Shown: positions 1 to 58,010 of the stretch, piece by piece
Layout: each line of letters begins with the position of its first letter
Position numbering within the stretch: position 1 is the stretch's first letter
Origin: Magnetococcales bacterium
GTDB taxonomy: Bacteria > Pseudomonadota > Magnetococcia > Magnetococcales > UBA8363
Direction of reading: 5' to 3'
Assembly (NCBI GenBank): GCA_015228815.1
Contig: JADGCV010000017.1
Span: forward strand, 1 to 62,404
DNA length: 62,404 nucleotides
Position numbers and translations under genes: made by a program
Notes under the pieces: model-generated
Seen by the model: only the letters and a program-made list of their open reading frames with translations
Database searches by the model: none
Told to the model about the DNA's origin: nothing

Positions 1-145
1 CAAGGCGCGCGCCTGCGCGAATTTCCGCAAAAACTGCGGAAATTCGCTTCGGGTGAAAGGGCGCGTGGAAAAACAAAATCAAAATCAAAAACAAAGTCAA
101 AACCCTGGGGGCAATCCCCCAGACCCCTTTTTTCTTTCAATAATT
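1..145. repeat. Solo arm of hairpin-bearing MITE, doubles as terminator
   Basis: This stretch matches the right arm of the complete 453-bp element at 43,544-43,996. It has a perfect 13-bp-stem hairpin (17-47, loop AAAAC), the motif TTCGGGTGAAA, a purine-rich spacer with repeated CAAA, a second hairpin (105-122, CTGGGGG/CCCCCAG) and a T run at 128-133. The outer GTAA terminus is missing, so this is a truncated copy. The second hairpin plus T run looks like an intrinsic terminator for plus-strand transcription. The stop codon of the dehydrogenase gene lies at the element's end. Confidence 0.7.
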
Positions 146-1330
146 TTAAACACTCCCCCTGGGATTGGCATGAGGGACCATGGACGTCTGCCAGAAGGAA
201 ACCAGCTCCTCCCGGGTCACCGCCCGGGGATTAAACCGGGTGCAGATATCCACCAGGGCATCCTGGGCCAAAACGCACGGATCGACAGTAGACAAATCGA
301 TACCGTCACGACGGGTCAATGCGGCCAGATCCACCGCCAGTCCACCCGCCCGCTGAAAATCCCCGACCCTTTGCGCAATGGAAAACCCGATCCGGGATTC
401 CAGGGTTTCGAGTCTCCTGGCAACCTTGTCCTCACCAGAGTTGAACTCCAGAACCCGCGAAAGAAACACACCGTTGGCCTCGCCGTGCCCCACGCCAAAA
501 CGGGCCAGTTGATGGGCCAGAGAGTGACAAATGCCCACCCCACACTGGTTTTGCACCATCCCCGCCAGACAGGCGGCAAATTGCAGCTCCTGGACAACAG
601 CCCCATCCTCCGCATCCTCAAGCCAACAAAGCCCCAACCGGCCCAAACGCTCGAGCGCCGATTCGGCGAGAAGATCGGCCATCGGATTGTCCACATTGGA
701 CACAAACCCCTCCACCGCATGGGTCATGGCATCGATGACCCCCGCCATCATCACCGGACGGGGAATACCGGAAAGGAAACGGGGATCGAGCAACACCACG
801 TCGAACAGAAAATCATGAGTGACCACGGCTTTTTTGGTCCCGGTGGCGCGATCGATCACCAAAGCGGAAGAGGAGGCCTCCGCCCCCGAACCCGCGGTCG
901 TGGGAATGGCACACAGGCGCAGATTGTCCTTCAAGGGAGGAGCCGCGAAGGGACGATACAACCGCTCCCCTTCCCCTTCGGGCCAGCCGATCCGCAGCAT
1001 GACCAGGCGGGCCAGATCCATCACCGCCCCGCCGCCGACCGCCACGATCAGATCGGGCATCCCCCCCGATAACCGGCCCATCACCCCTTCAACCCCGTCC
1101 CAATCGGGATCCCCCCCTCCAGGCCGGATCACCTCCACCACCTGCTCGGCCAGAAGCATGCGTTTGATTTCATGGCGCAGATGGGGCGCCAGCGATCCGC
1201 CCGTCAACAACAACGTCCGCGCCGATCCGATCCCCCTGAGGGCCATCAACGCCCGAGGACCGGCGAACAGATCGGTATTGGCCAACAGACGCGGTATCGG
1301 AAACACTGTCCTGATCCGGGAACATCCCAT
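146..1330 (-). CDS. Iron-containing (group III) alcohol dehydrogenase
   Basis: Predicted NAD(P)-dependent, Fe-dependent alcohol dehydrogenase of about 394 residues, the usual family length. Visible motifs are the dinucleotide-binding loop AVGGGAVMDLAR, the conserved PTTAGSGAEAS, and metal ligands in DAMTHAVEGFVS, HSLAHQLA and GHGEAN. The open frame extends upstream to 1588, but the extra N-terminus is not family-like. I therefore choose ATG 1330, which is preceded by a G-rich ribosome-binding stretch. The substrate cannot be told. The last codons run into a MITE arm, so the extreme C-terminus may have been altered. Confidence 0.85.
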   Translation of the reverse strand: MGCSRIRTVFPIPRLLANTDLFAGPRALMALRGIGSARTLLLTGGSLAPHLRHEIKRMLLAEQVVEVIRPGGGDPDWDGVEGVMGRLSGGMPDLIVAVGGGAVMDLARLVMLRIGWPEGEGERLYRPFAAPPLKDNLRLCAIPTTAGSGAEASSSALVIDRATGTKKAVVTHDFLFDVVLLDPRFLSGIPRPVMMAGVIDAMTHAVEGFVSNVDNPMADLLAESALERLGRLGLCWLEDAEDGAVVQELQFAACLAGMVQNQCGVGICHSLAHQLARFGVGHGEANGVFLSRVLEFNSGEDKVARRLETLESRIGFSIAQRVGDFQRAGGLAVDLAALTRRDGIDLSTVDPCVLAQDALVDICTRFNPRAVTREELVSFWQTSMVPHANPRGSV

Positions 1331-40631: not shown

Positions 40632-40681
40632 GACTCCAAATCATCCATTTTGTGACCGGCGATCCACACCAAGGAATCCCA

Positions 40682-42016
40682 ATGCTCCTGCGCTTTTCAG
40701 TCACAAACCTGTTCTGCTTCGCCGACGAGGCGGAGTTGAACCTGGTGGCGACCAAGGATAAAAATCATCCCGAACATCTGTGCCCCGCCGACAAATTCAA
40801 CGCCTTGCGGATTGCGGCGTTGTATGGCGCCAATGCCCACGGCAAATCACGGCTTGTCCAGGCGATGCAATGCGCCAAGACCATCATCACCAAGGGAACC
40901 ACCGAACCTGGTCAGGCCATCCCCGTGACTCCCTTTCGCCTGGATGTTGACCTGCGACAAAAACCAACCCGGTTCGAATTTGTTTTTTCAACAAAAGAAA
41001 CCATATATACCTACGGTTTCCAATGCGACGAAAAACAAATCTTTGAAGAATGGCTTTTTTCAAAACCCGCGAACCGACACGAAGTCAAATTGTTCGAACG
41101 CCGGGTCGATGGACAGGGGAATAGCGAATTCAACATTGGCAGGACCTTGCAACGCGGTAATACAAAGGGTCGGAGTTTCCTTAAATTTCTGACCCAGAGC
41201 GTCCGGGGAAACCAGTTGTTCCTCACAAGGGCAATCAACGATAATCTGGATTATCTATCCCCGGTCCATGACTGGTTCAATCATTCATTGAATATTTGGG
41301 AGGCTGGTGCGCCCATTCTTCCGGTCGCACTTCTTGCGTTGGAAAATGAACGCTTTCGAAATTTTGTCGGCGAGTCGATGAAGTCTTTCGATACGGGCAT
41401 CAATGGTATTCATACGGAAGAAAGATCTGGAAAGCCATCACAAAAATTAGATTTTCTTCTACACACTTTCGAGTTCGGGAAAGATGTTGATCAGGAAGAA
41501 ATAATACTCGAAGACAGTTCCGATCATGGGGGCTTGCTGCATTATTTTTCGAAGGACAAAATTCGATCGATAAGAATGCAAACACTCCATGAGGTCCCTG
41601 GTGACGATCCCGTGTTTTTTAAATTGAGTGATGAATCTGCCGGAACACGCCGTCTGATTCAATTGCTTCCCCTGCTGTTTGCAGAAGAAGCGATGGAAAA
41701 CGTTTATGTCATCGACGAGTTGGACCGCACCCTCCACCCCAGCCTTTCCCGTGCATTCATTGAGCATTTTCTCAAGATCATCGGATGCGACAGGAATCAG
41801 CTAATCTTCACCACGCATGAAAGCAATCTTCTTGATCTTGACTTATTGCGCCGCGATGAGATATGGTTTGTCGAGAAAGATGCCAAGGGAAGATCACAAC
41901 TCTATCCCTTGACCAGTTTTAAAGCCCGACCGGACATCAATATTGCCCGGGGTTACCTCCAGGGTCGGTTTGGCGCCATCCCTTTCATCGGTGACCCTTC
42001 CGCCCTGGGTTGGTAG
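40682..42016 (+). CDS. RloA/AbiLi-like AAA ATPase
   Basis: 444 residues. AAA_15/21-type ABC ATPase related to OLD-family proteins. Walker A GANAHGKS (about 49-56), Walker B VYVIDELD (about 341), and the H-loop TTHESN at about 380. Directly followed by an RloB-like gene, the partner seen in RloAB and AbiL defence pairs. ATP-dependent sensor of phage infection is the inferred role. It has AT-richer codon use than the phage structural genes. Confidence 0.85.
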   Translation: MLLRFSVTNLFCFADEAELNLVATKDKNHPEHLCPADKFNALRIAALYGANAHGKSRLVQAMQCAKTIITKGTTEPGQAIPVTPFRLDVDLRQKPTRFEFVFSTKETIYTYGFQCDEKQIFEEWLFSKPANRHEVKLFERRVDGQGNSEFNIGRTLQRGNTKGRSFLKFLTQSVRGNQLFLTRAINDNLDYLSPVHDWFNHSLNIWEAGAPILPVALLALENERFRNFVGESMKSFDTGINGIHTEERSGKPSQKLDFLLHTFEFGKDVDQEEIILEDSSDHGGLLHYFSKDKIRSIRMQTLHEVPGDDPVFFKLSDESAGTRRLIQLLPLLFAEEAMENVYVIDELDRTLHPSLSRAFIEHFLKIIGCDRNQLIFTTHESNLLDLDLLRRDEIWFVEKDAKGRSQLYPLTSFKARPDINIARGYLQGRFGAIPFIGDPSALGW

Positions 42017-42038
42017 ACACACAAGGGATCGCTTTTTT

Positions 42039-42689
42039 GTGCCCAAATCACTGACATCAAGAAAAAGATTAAAGGGTCGGACCGGGTCGAGCACACGGGA
42101 TTCACGACTCTTTGTCATTGCAACGGAAGGAAGTGAAACGGAACCATTGTATTTTAATTGTTTCAAGGAAAAATTTACAAATGGAAACAGAAAAATAAAG
42201 ATTGCCATTCTTGGAGCCGGTGGCAAGCAGAGGTCTTCACCAAAACAGATACTTGGAAGAATCGATACCTACATCCAGAAGAACGACATAAAGAAAGATG
42301 ATGAATTCTGGCTGGTACTGGATGCCGAGAGCAGAGGCGGAAACGATCTGGACAGTATTGCCACGGAAGCGAAGAGGAAAAAATATCGTCTTGCCATAAG
42401 CAATCCCAGTTTCGAGATCTGGCTGTTATGCCATCGTCAACGCCCACCCGGAGGACCGGTCGAACAACGCCATCTCGAAGACTCGTTGAGCAAAGCCCTT
42501 GGAAAATCCTATGAAAAGGGAAAAATAACGTGCGACGATTACATGAACGCAGTTGATAAGGCCATCGCCATAGCCAAAAAATCAGATCTTTGCCCCGACG
42601 CTGCCTGGCCCAAATCCACGGGCACCCATGTTTATCGAGTCATCGAGTCCATCAAGGCCTTCATCAACGCAACCACCGCATCCATCTGA
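42039..42689 (+). CDS. RloB/AbiLii-like TOPRIM-type protein
   Basis: 216 residues from GTG 42039 (AAGGGA upstream). The RloB signature is clear: VIATEGSETEPLYF at the N-terminus, KDDEFWLVLDAE, and ISNPSFEIWLL; these acidic residues make a TOPRIM-like metal site. Predicted effector nuclease of the RloAB/AbiL pair, starting 22 nt after the ATPase stop. DefenseFinder's AbiL model uses the same two domains. Confidence 0.85.
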   Translation: MPKSLTSRKRLKGRTGSSTRDSRLFVIATEGSETEPLYFNCFKEKFTNGNRKIKIAILGAGGKQRSSPKQILGRIDTYIQKNDIKKDDEFWLVLDAESRGGNDLDSIATEAKRKKYRLAISNPSFEIWLLCHRQRPPGGPVEQRHLEDSLSKALGKSYEKGKITCDDYMNAVDKAIAIAKKSDLCPDAAWPKSTGTHVYRVIESIKAFINATTASI

Positions 42690-42808
42690 TCGGACCGCCT
42701 GATTAACTCCATGCGCACGAGGTACCAGATTTATTATTTCTGGAAAAGGAACCATGCAATTATCATTATCAATCGTCAATCAACCTATTGCCTATTTGGT
42801 GCTCAAGC

Positions 42809-43324
42809 ATGAACGGAAGACCAGAAATACCAACTGAAATAAAACGTAAAGTTCTTGTCGAAGCTGGGCATCGGTGCGCAATTCCGACTTGTCGGCATAT
42901 CGATGTAGATGTTCACCATATCGTGCCTTGGGAAAAATGCCAGAAGCATGAATATGAGAATCTGATTGCCCTCTGCCCAAATTGCCACCGTCGAGTACAT
43001 AAGAATGAGATTGACAGAAAATCATTGGCCATTTACAAAAATAATCTCAGGAAAGCGCACGATAAATACTCGCAATTCGAAATTGACTTTCTTTACGAGA
43101 CGTACTTAATCAGAGACAATAAAAACACTGGCATACAGTTTCCACCATACTTAATTTTACTGATTAAAAGGCTTCTTGAATCTGGTTTTCTGTCAAGGAC
43201 TGTGACTCAAGGTGGTGTTTACCTGATGGAAATGAAGTCAAGCCCAGACATATACAGAATCACCAACATAGGAATAGACTTCATAGAATCATTTTCTAAA
43301 GACAATGAAAAAAATTTACCTTGA
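42809..43324 (+). CDS. HNH endonuclease
   Basis: 171 residues. An HNH nuclease fold (about 15-75) with zinc-binding Cys pairs (CAIPTCR and CPNCHRR) and catalytic DVHHIVPW / NLIALCPNCHRRVH. The C-terminal half (about 85-165) is helical with an unknown, possibly winged-helix, domain. It is AT-rich and sits right after RloB. It may be a third defence component or a stand-alone mobile nuclease. Confidence 0.8.
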   Translation: MNGRPEIPTEIKRKVLVEAGHRCAIPTCRHIDVDVHHIVPWEKCQKHEYENLIALCPNCHRRVHKNEIDRKSLAIYKNNLRKAHDKYSQFEIDFLYETYLIRDNKNTGIQFPPYLILLIKRLLESGFLSRTVTQGGVYLMEMKSSPDIYRITNIGIDFIESFSKDNEKNLP

Positions 43325-43543
43325 TGTTTCCAGCGACTTGCACAGGTCAACCATTCCTGAGTCCCCTGCAAAAAGTCCGTAACTGATTGAAATTGCTAGA
43401 CTTTATTTTCAGACTCGAAATGCGGATTTTCTGAACTATATCAATATGTTGTCCAAATTTTCCCCAGACTTTTTGCAGGAGACTCATTCCTGAATGCGCC
43501 CATTTTCTGCCATCGGGCCAGGCGGCTGCGCATCAACGCCTGG
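43325..43543. other. AT-rich spacer between HNH gene and MITE
   Basis: About 220 nt without coding signal. It ends in the target duplication ACGCCTGG (43,536-43,543) of the following element. An AT-rich inner part (43,380-43,480) has no clear promoter. Confidence 0.4.
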
Positions 43544-43996
43544 GTAACTATTCAGACCCCTCCCCGTATTAAAATTATTGAAAGAAAAAAGGGGTCTGGG
43601 AGATTTCCCCCAGGGTTTTGACTTTTCTTTTTGTTTTGACTTTGTTTTCACGCGCCATTTCACCCGAAGCGAATTTCCGCGTTTTTTGCGGAAATTCGCG
43701 CAAGACGCGCCCCCTTGCTCAAGTCTTTTCGCGGTTTTTGCGAAAAGACCAGGACACATTGCAAGTTTTCAGGCCTTTCAACACGCAAGGGGTTTGTCTT
43801 CCTTCGCAAAAACCGCGAAGAAGGGCAGGCCAAAGGGCGCGTCTATGCAAGATTCCCGCAAAAACCACGCGGGAATCTTGCTTCGGGTGAAATGGCGCGT
43901 GGAAAAACAAAGTCAAAAACAAAACCCTGGGGGCAATCCCCCAGACCCCTTTTTTCTTTCAATAATTTTAATACGGGAAGGGGTCTGAACGATTAC
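43544..43996. mobile_element. 453-bp MITE with 8-bp target duplication and covarying hairpins
   Basis: Terminal inverted repeat GTAACTATTCAGACCCC (left) / GTAATCGTTCAGACCCC (right, complement). Flanked by ACGCCTGG at 43,536-43,543 and 43,997-44,004, a perfect 8-bp duplication. The GTAA ends and 8-bp duplication fit IS66-type transposition. Arms of about 140 nt pair with each other. They carry four hairpins (43,669-43,699; 43,723-43,749; ~43,802-43,820; 43,847-43,881) whose stems differ but keep paired, with A5/T5-type loops. No coding sequence. Confidence 0.85.
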
Positions 43997-44103
43997 ACGC
44001 CTGGTCCGATGGTTCATCCATTGACACGTCCATCGTCGATCGTCGTTGTCCCCCAAGGATCACCATTCCGGCATCAACACATACACCACACAGGAGATCG
44101 TCC

Positions 44104-45132
44104 ATGACCGTCGGACTGACGAAAGGGAATGCCATTTCCCTGATTGGATCACGTTTTGGCAATCGCAGCGACCTTGACACCATCATCGAGGATGAACTCA
44201 ACCTGTCCCAGACCCAGGCGTTGGAAGGGGGAGATTTTCTTCCATGGTTTTTGATCCGCGAGGTCAAGACGACCGTTCGCGCCGGAACGACCCGGGTTTC
44301 CATGGATGCCCTGGGGGCGAGCGAACTGACCACCAATGGTTCCTTCTCCAGCGATACCGGCTGGACCAAAGGAACCGGTTGGACCATCTCGGGAGGCAAG
44401 GCCACCTCCGATGGTTCCCAATCAACCACTTCCGATCTGGAACAGGATATTTCGGTCACGCAGAACAGTTATTACACCCTGCGCTTCACCCTGTCGGCAA
44501 TGACGGCGGGAACCCTTACCCCAAAAATCGCCGCCACCTCCGGAACCACTCGCTCCGGCAATGGTCATTATGAAGAAAGAATCATGGCCGGGGCGGGAAC
44601 CACCCCGCGGCTCGAATTCTCCGCCGATGCCGATTTTATCGGATCCATCGACAATGTGTCGGTCTGGGGAGAGGGAGACGCCAAACTGTTGCGGGTCTAT
44701 GAACACGGCGGCATCTACTGGGGCGCTTCCGGCAGTACCGCGCCAACCGCCGAACTCCTGCGCGGCACCTACAAATACCTGTGGAGCAAACTCAATACCG
44801 AAAGCGCCGGAACGCCAACCCACTACGCCATCCGCGGACGCGATCTGATCCTCTATCCCGTGCCATCCGCCGATTTTGAATTGTTCAGCGTCGGCTACCA
44901 TCGCGAAGCCCCCTTCTCGACCCTGGCCACCGGAAACTCCAACGCCTGGCTCCGCCATGCCGCCGACTGGTTCATCGCCGAGGCCTCCTTTCGCGTCGCC
45001 TATCATCTCAAGGACAACGAAAGTCTGCAAAAATTTCAACAGGAAGCCGCCCTCGCCAAGGCCCGGGTGATGCTCGCCCATCGCGCCAACGCTCATCCCA
45101 CCGAAATGAGCAACACCGGAGGTGCCGCCTGA
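44104..45132 (+). CDS. Head-to-tail adaptor-like protein, copy 2, with inserted beta domain
   Basis: 342 residues. The N- and C-terminal parts (about 1-75 and 200-340) resemble the adaptor at 38,553, including the IPAY-like layout. Residues about 77-197 hold an inserted jelly-roll-like domain: TTNGSFSSDTGWTKGTGW..., LTLSAMTAGTLTPKIAATSGT, ADADFIGSIDNVSVW. The same domain occurs in the tail protein at 47,172. The insertion suggests a surface-exposed carbohydrate-binding ornament. GGAG precedes ATG 44104. Confidence 0.65.
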   Translation: MTVGLTKGNAISLIGSRFGNRSDLDTIIEDELNLSQTQALEGGDFLPWFLIREVKTTVRAGTTRVSMDALGASELTTNGSFSSDTGWTKGTGWTISGGKATSDGSQSTTSDLEQDISVTQNSYYTLRFTLSAMTAGTLTPKIAATSGTTRSGNGHYEERIMAGAGTTPRLEFSADADFIGSIDNVSVWGEGDAKLLRVYEHGGIYWGASGSTAPTAELLRGTYKYLWSKLNTESAGTPTHYAIRGRDLILYPVPSADFELFSVGYHREAPFSTLATGNSNAWLRHAADWFIAEASFRVAYHLKDNESLQKFQQEAALAKARVMLAHRANAHPTEMSNTGGAA

Positions 45133-54567: not shown

Positions 54568-55179
54568 TGGAACCCCCCATCATTGTAAACGAGGATGGCG
54601 ATCTTTCATTTTACAAAACCGTCAAGGATGCAGAATGTTCCATAGAAGGCGTTGATGTTGAAGATGGCGTCTATCAGGGGTTTGATAAAAACGGGACAAT
54701 CCTCAATCGTAACCGTTCAGACCCCCTCTCCCTCCGGAAGAGGGTCGGGGTGAGGGGAAACAGAAACTCCATCATTCAAAGGGCTGTGGTGATCCTTGAA
54801 GAGCCATTCCAATTGCTTGATTTCGTGACGAGATCTTTCTATGGAATTACCGTTGATCAAAGCGCCGGTTCCCTCACCCCTGCCCCTCTCCCAGAGGGAG
54901 AGGGGAAAAAATCCAGGGGGGGTCTGAACGGTTACCCTCAATCTCATTGCCAAGAATGTCAGAAGGAAAAAAGTGCCATGGCTGTTTGGGATGGAGATCA
55001 TTGATATTGGGACAGTCGAAATCAGAGACGGAACCGAGAAGAATCCGGAAATGTTAAAGACGTTATTGAGAAACCATATCTCATCATTTATAGAAAGAAA
55101 AAACATGAACGAGAAGGTGCTGGACGACAATTTGGAATCACTCCTGGCCCAAGCCATCGACCTTAGTGGCTATACGTAG
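54567..55179 (+). pseudogene. Gene of ~125 codons interrupted by a MITE
   Basis: Removing the element (54,709-54,935) and one 8-bp target copy rejoins one frame: the N-terminal MEPPIIVNEDGDLSFYKTVKDAECSIEGVDVEDGVYQGFDKNGTILN runs on into LIAKNVRRKKVPWLFG... to TAG at 55,179. The N-terminal layout (DGDLSFYKTVKDAE, IEGVDVEDG, YDSEGN-like) resembles small immunity-type proteins near polymorphic toxins; this is uncertain. The intact protein would have about 125 residues. Confidence 0.65.
54709..54935. mobile_element. 227-bp MITE with perfect 8-bp target duplication
   Basis: Ends GTAACCGTTCAGACCCCC and its complement. Flanks CCTCAATC at 54,701-54,708 and 54,936-54,943. Shares its ends with the 453-bp element at 43,544 but has different inner repeats: CCCTCTCCCTCCGGAAGAGG and similar GGGAGAGGG-type palindromes. 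Internal sequence is non-coding. It interrupts the gene at 54,567. Confidence 0.85.
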
Positions 55180-56670: not shown

Positions 56671-57046
56671 GCGGCGAGTGTGGCATGCATGCGGCGCGAG
56701 GGCAAGCTATTCGACGCATCATGCGCGGCGAATGGCCGGGCGATTCTCCGCAGCTATTGCTATTCGCCTGAAAGCAGGAGAGGATGAGCAGTGGTTGCCC
56801 GTTCGACGCCGGGTTCCCTCGCCCCCTGATTGGTGCGAAGAGGGATCGAAATGGTCGCGAGGTTGGTGTGCGTGCAACATGTTTATTTTATTTGCGAAAT
56901 CTGGGTCAAAATGGTGCGAGGTCGGATTGGGCATCCGTCCTCGGCCACAGAGAAAGAGAGAGGGGTTCGGGCCGGTTTTGGCCCGGTTGGGCGGGGGGCC
57001 GACCTCGCGGGAGGTGAACTCTGTTTTGGCCGTCGCCGTAACCATT
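56671..57046. other. Spacer between Fic gene and IS66 relic
   Basis: A 376-nt stretch without a supportable gene; short frames have no family marks. It holds the upstream region of the Fic gene, read on the minus strand. Confidence 0.4.
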
Positions 57047-57067
57047 GTAAGCGCCGAACGAACCCCA

Positions 57068-57385
57068 TCAGCAAAGTGACTTGCTTTTTTCTGAATTTTT
57101 GCAGTTCCAGGGAAGGAGGGCTGCAAACTCTTCCACCGTGGTTGCATTGGGAATCGCACTGAAGACCTTGCGAAGGTAGGCGTAAGGTTCCAAACCTGAT
57201 GCCTTAGCCGTTTCGATCAATCTGTAGAGGTTGGCGGAAGCCTTGGCTCCTGCGACAGAATTGGAGAAGAGCCAGCCCTTGCGACCGATCGCGAACGGGC
57301 GTATGGCGTTTTCCACGGAGTTGTTGTCGATTTTCAATCGGCCATCTTCGATATGCCAGATGAGACTTGGATTAACTTTGCTCAA
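57068..57385 (-). pseudogene. IS66 transposase (TnpC) C-terminal fragment
   Basis: About 105 residues of the catalytic C-terminus: DGRLKIDNNSVENAIRPFAIGRKGWLFSNSVAGAKASANLYRLIETAK, LEPYAYLRKVFSAIPNA and a LLPW end. It lacks the DDE core upstream. Not functional. Confidence 0.85.
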
Positions 57386-57496
57386 GTCGGAAAAGAAGTT
57401 GATATACTGCCCCCGGATCTCCTGCCCCGGAAAAGAAATTGATACACTGTCCCCGGATCTCCAAAAAGACCTCTTTCAAATCATGCGGTGGACGCA

Positions 57497-57880
57497 TCAT
57501 GGCAAACCTGCCGCATGGCGAATCAACGCCCCCAAACTTTTAATCTCCATCCCCCCGGGAAATTCAAAACGGATCTGGTTCGGCAACTGGATCACAACGT
57601 CGCTCAGGGATTCATGACCTGCATCTCCAGATCCATCATGCCCTTGATGCATGACCCGTAAAGAACGAAATGTGGGGAAGATCGGCGTGGTTGTGGTCGG
57701 GAGCATCCCCCTTTTCCGAAACCAACTTCGCCAGCGGTAAAGGTCCTGTGGTTCCAAGCCGTGTTCCAGGGCATAATCCTTCACACCCCCATTGGCGGAA
57801 ACTTCACACTGCCGAATGTGCCTGATCCAAAAACTTTGCAGGGAGGTCAATCCCTCCCCATCCATTGCGTTTGTATCCAT
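57497..57880 (-). pseudogene. IS66 TnpA-like accessory gene
   Basis: 127 residues: HTH-like N-terminus (SFWIRHIRQCEVSANGGVKDYALEHGLEPQDLYRWRSWFRKRG), typical of IS66 TnpA, with a divergent C-terminus. It is open but isolated from its partners in a deleted element. Confidence 0.7.
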
Positions 57881-58010
57881 ATCCTGCTCCTTGATGTTGG
57901 AAATCTTGGATCAGGATCGCAGATAGAAAAAACGATGGGAACCCTGGGGTTCGTTCGGCGCTTACGATAGAAAAAACGATGGGAACCCTGGGGTTCGTTC
58001 GGCGCTTACG

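Follow-up and report, generated by a model that had tools for sequence, protein, structure and literature searches.

A non-coding element of Magnetococcales: a probable IS66-type mosaic MITE whose hairpins covary and reassort

Covarying stem positions are commonly regarded as strong evidence that an RNA structure is conserved. An element at 43544-43996 of the window (the whole stretch of 62,404 nucleotides analyzed here) raises the question of what covariation means when the hairpins are carried by a mobile DNA repeat. The original prediction described hairpins in this element whose stems change in pairs, and took these paired changes as a sign of selection on structure. Our best reading of the element is an IS66-type MITE of mosaic build, in which hairpins covary and reassort. 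Its features are as follows.

43544..43996, element, 453 bp, non-coding: four internal hairpins between GTAA-type inverted ends
43536..43543, no strand: left copy of the target-site duplication ACGCCTGG, read directly, identical to 43997-44004
43997..44004, no strand: right copy of the target-site duplication ACGCCTGG, a perfect 8-bp match to the left copy
43544..43565, plus strand: left terminal inverted repeat GTAACTATTCAGACCCCTCCCC, IS66-like, near-identical to the ends of IS66 element L149 in genus-mate G001
43975..43996, minus strand: right terminal inverted repeat GTAATCGTTCAGACCCCTTCCC, read directly, the inverted partner of the left end
43569..43617, plus strand: left core arm (...ATTATTGAAAGAAAAAAGGGGTCTGGGAG...), an outer terminator-like hairpin, slightly degenerate; elements with different outer ends carry this arm too
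43669..43699, plus strand: HP1, outer hairpin GCGAATTTCCGC-GTTTTTT-GCGGAAATTCGC, stem allele GCGAATTTCCGC, perfectly paired
43715..43753, plus strand: HP2, inner hairpin of class B, core GTCTTTTCGC-GGTTTTT-GCGAAAAGAC; the window copy has mismatches in the outer part
43792..43830, plus strand: HP3, inner hairpin of class C, GTTTGTCTTCCTTCGC / GCGAAGAAGGGCAGGC, with 5 mismatches in the window copy
43847..43881, plus strand: HP4, outer hairpin GCAAGATTCCCGC-AAAAACCAC-GCGGGAATCTTGC, stem allele GCAAGATTCCCGC, perfectly paired
43927..43944, plus strand: right core-arm hairpin CTGGGGG-CAAT-CCCCCAG, then ACCCCTTTTTT, terminator-like
1..149, plus strand: right part of a second copy, ending at the contig edge, with stem GCGAATTTCCGC at the HP4 position

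The element ends in GTAACTATTCAGACCCC and GTAATCGTTCAGACCCC. Read inward, its left half runs from a core arm (ATTATTGAAAGAAAAAAGGGGTCTGGG..), which includes a short G/C hairpin, through a T-rich spacer, the conserved linker CACGCGCCATTTCACCCGAAGC, HP1, a second linker and HP2 to a small palindromic centre, while the right half is the mirror image of the left and carries HP3 and HP4. The interior is a long inverted repeat with HP1/HP4 as the outer pair and HP2/HP3 as the inner pair, and the single-strand DNA folding energy is -186.6 kcal/mol vs -64.8 +/- 4.4 for shuffles (z -27.6). Only short, chance-like reading frames are present in the element, which is smaller than about 600 bp and has no transposase gene. 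These properties, together with the GTAA inverted ends matched by L149 and the perfect 8-bp duplication read on both flanks, bear out the prediction of a MITE with IS66-like ends. The description of its stems as fully paired is correct for the outer hairpins HP1 and HP4 but not for the inner hairpins HP2 and HP3, which have 4 and 5 mismatches. A truncated copy at 1-145 had also been said to hold a stem of the opposite arm; this stem, GCGAATTTCCGC, is indeed present, but the truncation is only an assembly edge, because base 1 of the window is base 1 of contig C17.

The element sits between defence-like genes (AAA ATPase, RloB, HNH) and a run of genes to its right that we take to be phage-like by their look, two of them having been tested without a Pfam match. 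The defence-like cluster at 40652-43324, beside the phage-like genes, comprises AAA_21 ATPase, RloB-like and HNH genes. Directly left of the element, at 43352-43493, is a small inverted-repeat element (GAGTCCCCTGCAAAAAGTC ... GACTTTTTGCAGGAGACTC) bordered by CATTCCTGA repeats. No clean empty insertion site was found in relatives. Conservation of the right flank starts only just before the phage-like gene at 44104; five of six matching relatives show no homology further left, and the sixth, G002, has two short left-side matches, one of which is probably its own core-arm hairpin beside the gene.

Copies or fragments of this family account for 97 BLAST matches from about 40 places in genome G000 (4.2 Mb, 96 contigs), where the end pattern GTAACNNNTCAGANCCC occurs 34 times and a backwards-read control pattern 0 times. 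The same architecture was found in genus-mates G002-G005 and G007 and is degenerate in G001 and G006. Outside the genus, other interiors accompany the outer arm hairpin, and in genus g7 the interior is a single hairpin of similar design. L066, L067 and further loci of g7, which belongs to a different family of the order, hold such single-hairpin relatives sharing the outer arm hairpin. The core arm was also found within elements with other outer ends or without any matching ends; the family is therefore a mosaic. Literature searches for elements like this in Magnetococcales gave nothing relevant. In deletion copies (L058 586-617, L032 717-746, L104 400-435, L118 377-412 and L131 346-374), the 5' half of a hairpin continues into the 3' half of a different one or into a linker. 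Their fusion points lie at loops, as expected of slippage between repeated loop sequences.

IS66 elements have inverted ends of 20-30 bp that start with GTAAGCG, and produce 8-bp duplications (PMC11946415). The GTAACTATTCAG ends are common to the window element and L149, and match the canonical GTAAGCG only as far as GTAA. L149 carries an apparently intact IS66-family transposase of 472 aa (NF033517, 300 bits) between GTAACTATTCAGCACCCC ends, which are flanked by a duplication matching at 7/8 positions. A search of G000 for a full IS66 element with these ends gave none, only a fragment with GTAAGCG ends. The window also contains an IS66 relic at 57038-58009 with canonical ends GTAAGCGCCGAACGAACCCC, the right end being present twice. 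A second GTAA-ended MITE at 54709-54935 is flanked by a perfect 8-bp duplication (CCTCAATC) and differs in its interior, which is palindromic; end pairs like its own occur at nearly equal spacing on contigs C8, C20 and C41. Within the four-hairpin family, perfect 8-bp duplications were seen in three copies, namely the window copy, L027 (ACAATATA) and L031 (AAAAATAT). A lack of duplications at other insertions, which would speak against the original prediction, was observed for several copies (the duplication is missing or unclear in L025 and L029, among others) but not for L027 and L031. The ends of L149, the 8-bp duplications and the second GTAA-ended element support IS66-type movement in trans, and the window copy is best read as a putative MITE that an IS66-type transposase would have moved in this way. 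Such movement explains only part of the family, because many copies have no GTAA ends or duplications.

The covariation of the stems was upheld once copies were collected and paired cells counted against shuffles. Among the inner hairpins (42 distinct, 39 nt), 95.4% of cells pair, both-side changes occur at 11/16 pairs, and 151 cells are changed on both sides vs 47 in shuffles, a count reached by 0/500 shuffles. In the 18 outer hairpins 94.9% of cells pair. Shifting partner columns by 1-3 abolishes the covariation signal. At least 106/169 hairpins are perfect by a strict count, which is an undercount since one allele's 17-nt loop lies beyond the span of the script; part of the assignment of hairpins to classes was manual. 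Read inward, the inner hairpins have conserved loops and a conserved CGC/GCG clamp with differing stems, and the loops retain their polarity. Stems vary faster, with an identity between genomes of 0.55-0.62 vs 0.77-0.80 for linkers and inner loops. No arm-to-arm concerted change was detected in the linkers, though with low power; the covarying units are therefore local hairpins, and one giant stem was rejected as the covarying unit. Mismatched class C stems are common to several separate copies (L025, L028, L045 and the window copy), and pairing is therefore not strictly required. Unpaired stem changes in other copies, which the prediction had named as evidence against itself, thus exist in some copies.

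Within an element, the stems of mirror hairpins nearly always differ. Three outer stems are in use in G000 (GCGAATTTCCGC, GCAAGATTCCCGC and GCGGTTTCTCGC) and two in G004/G005. Mirror stems are the same within an element in 1/33 outer pairs vs 11.4 expected and in 0/33 inner pairs vs 14.6 expected, counts in which a few entries were read by eye and some alleles were hand-grouped into classes. Shuffles restricted to sides gave p 0.035 (G000) and 0.019 (G004/5/7), and with added G004/5/7 copies, fetched after this test and classified by eye, outer stems differ in 16/18 elements (Fisher p 0.001); these p values overstate independence, as the copies are kin by descent and an interior inversion in G004/5/7 would keep the difference. 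The exceptions with the same outer stem twice are L116 and L168.

Template switching makes multi-base compensatory changes and recopies one hairpin arm from the other (PMC8794818). In L117 and L122, a class C stem has one old arm and one new arm, one arm having changed as a block (GCCTTTTTTCGC versus GCCATATTTGCGC); L173 has a similar half-changed stem, and L123 has the new block in both arms. Poly-T and poly-A runs are equal in length in 11/14 stems (p 0.002), and inner stem lengths of 16, 17 and 18 bp are in step on both sides. The half-changed stems, length-matched runs and length-matched arms therefore suggest that one arm was copied into the other, and the lack of concerted change in linkers is as expected because such copying is local. 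In the half-converted stems, events would have run from old arm to new arm. Covariation alone is not proof of selection here, as template-switch recopying, a known mutational process, fits too. The claim that the paired changes indicate selection and not just drift does not follow from those changes alone, given the half-converted stems, equal arm runs and mismatched stems found in several separate copies. With many copies in several genomes and half-converted stems visible, the shares of mutation and selection in covariation could be measured in this family.

Our preferred explanation, to which we assign a probability of roughly 0.55, is a non-autonomous, IS66-moved MITE of a mosaic family, with stems matched largely by local template switching and with reshuffled alleles. 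An IS66-family transposase would act in trans on the GTAA ends and leave an 8-bp duplication. HP1/HP4 and HP2/HP3 would each take stems from an allele set shared by the pair, and in single strand each hairpin would fold alone, since mirror hairpins usually differ in stem. When one arm mutates, a polymerase would copy the new arm into the other, by which several pairs or the arm length could change in one step. Inversion and exchange between copies would reshuffle the stem alleles. Selection may in addition preserve the hairpin shape as well as linkers and loops; covariation would not need it. The anatomy, the duplication, the copy family, the covariation, the difference between mirror stems and the half-converted stems are observed, whereas IS66 mobilization, template switching as the cause of the matched stems and any hairpin function are inferred.

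A possible but clearly less probable explanation is selection on a folded RNA or single-stranded DNA, where compensatory changes are selected and mirror stems must differ to allow local folding, not one long duplex. The strong covariation of inner and outer hairpins, the faster variation of stems than of linkers and inner loops, and the rarity of same mirror stems, outer and inner, are consistent with it, and REP hairpins offer a precedent in which much of the stem acts by shape, not sequence (PMC8266576). The mismatched class C stems of L025, L028, L045 and the window copy argue against it, as do the repeated outer stems of L116 and L168 and the lack of an Rfam family match; the window had no match at gathering score, and other copies gave only matches far below gathering scores. 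The stem covariation characteristic of structured RNA is present, yet it is also expected under template switching. The greater conservation of linkers and inner loops relative to stems leaves room for selection on the hairpin form itself; this contrast and the constant loop polarity suggest constraint beyond mutation, against a purely mutational reading.

Another tentative proposal, compatible with an IS66-moved MITE shaped by template switching, is that transposition has spread the element as a bidirectional transcription terminator. A terminator-like hairpin is present in each outer arm (4 sites vs 1.7 in shuffles). For the 14 copies where genes were called on both flanks, the neighbours are convergent in 8 cases, tandem in 5 and divergent in 1, a convergent excess of p 0.01 if 25% is expected, this 25% being assumed and not the genome's own rate. 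However, the gene calls are crude, avoidance of promoters and operons would yield the same bias, and the four inner hairpins are left unexplained. The terminator-like outer hairpins and the bias to gene 3' ends are hints of a role.

It is somewhat more doubtful that the difference between mirror stems is only apparent, same-stem copies being hard to assemble or, as long perfect palindromes, unstable. All genomes of the genus are fragmented, many contigs end within copies, and the contig of the same-stem copy L168 stops within HP4. On the other hand, L116 was assembled even though its two outer stems are the same, arm identity is already interrupted by T-rich spacers that differ, and the palindromic form and matched changes of each stem would still need an explanation. 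A more speculative suggestion, which we consider rather unlikely, is that the four hairpins take their stems from small exchangeable allele sets and mirror hairpins are kept different for separate folding, the alleles serving as interchangeable modules of folded DNA or RNA recognized by a cellular or element protein. If selection does keep mirror stems different, the family would exemplify a mobile element that maintains hairpins able to fold separately.

By far the least probable reading is that the element is REP-like and moves through a Y1 (HUH) transposase recognizing folded hairpins: Y1_Tnp genes occur in 7/8 genomes of the genus, but four-hairpin elements were found at 0/11 Y1 loci examined, just short matches to the arm hairpin or an outer end lie near L159, L163 and L166, and the window copy's 8-bp duplication is IS66-type, unlike REP elements, so that the REP/RAYT link was rejected with no Y1 gene flanked by these elements among the 11 loci.

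Like IS66-family MITEs, the element has GTAA-starting inverted ends, an 8-bp duplication and no coding capacity, and its ends are nearly identical to those of L149. Unlike them, it has as its interior an inverted repeat of four hairpins, for which no link to IS66 genes was detected, and its core is also present in elements with other outer ends or none. The family resembles BIME / REP mosaic repeats in its many intergenic copies, in hairpin units arranged in mosaics and in stems that are free to vary, but differs from them in that no association with a Y1 transposase was found and no GTAG motif was noted, and in its IS66-type ends. Quasipalindrome (template-switch) mutation (PMC8794818, PMC7202029) similarly alters the two arms of short hairpins at several bases and with matching lengths, and leaves half-corrected intermediates; there it was described in RNA genes or a bench reporter, whereas here it would have acted across a dispersed mobile repeat family.
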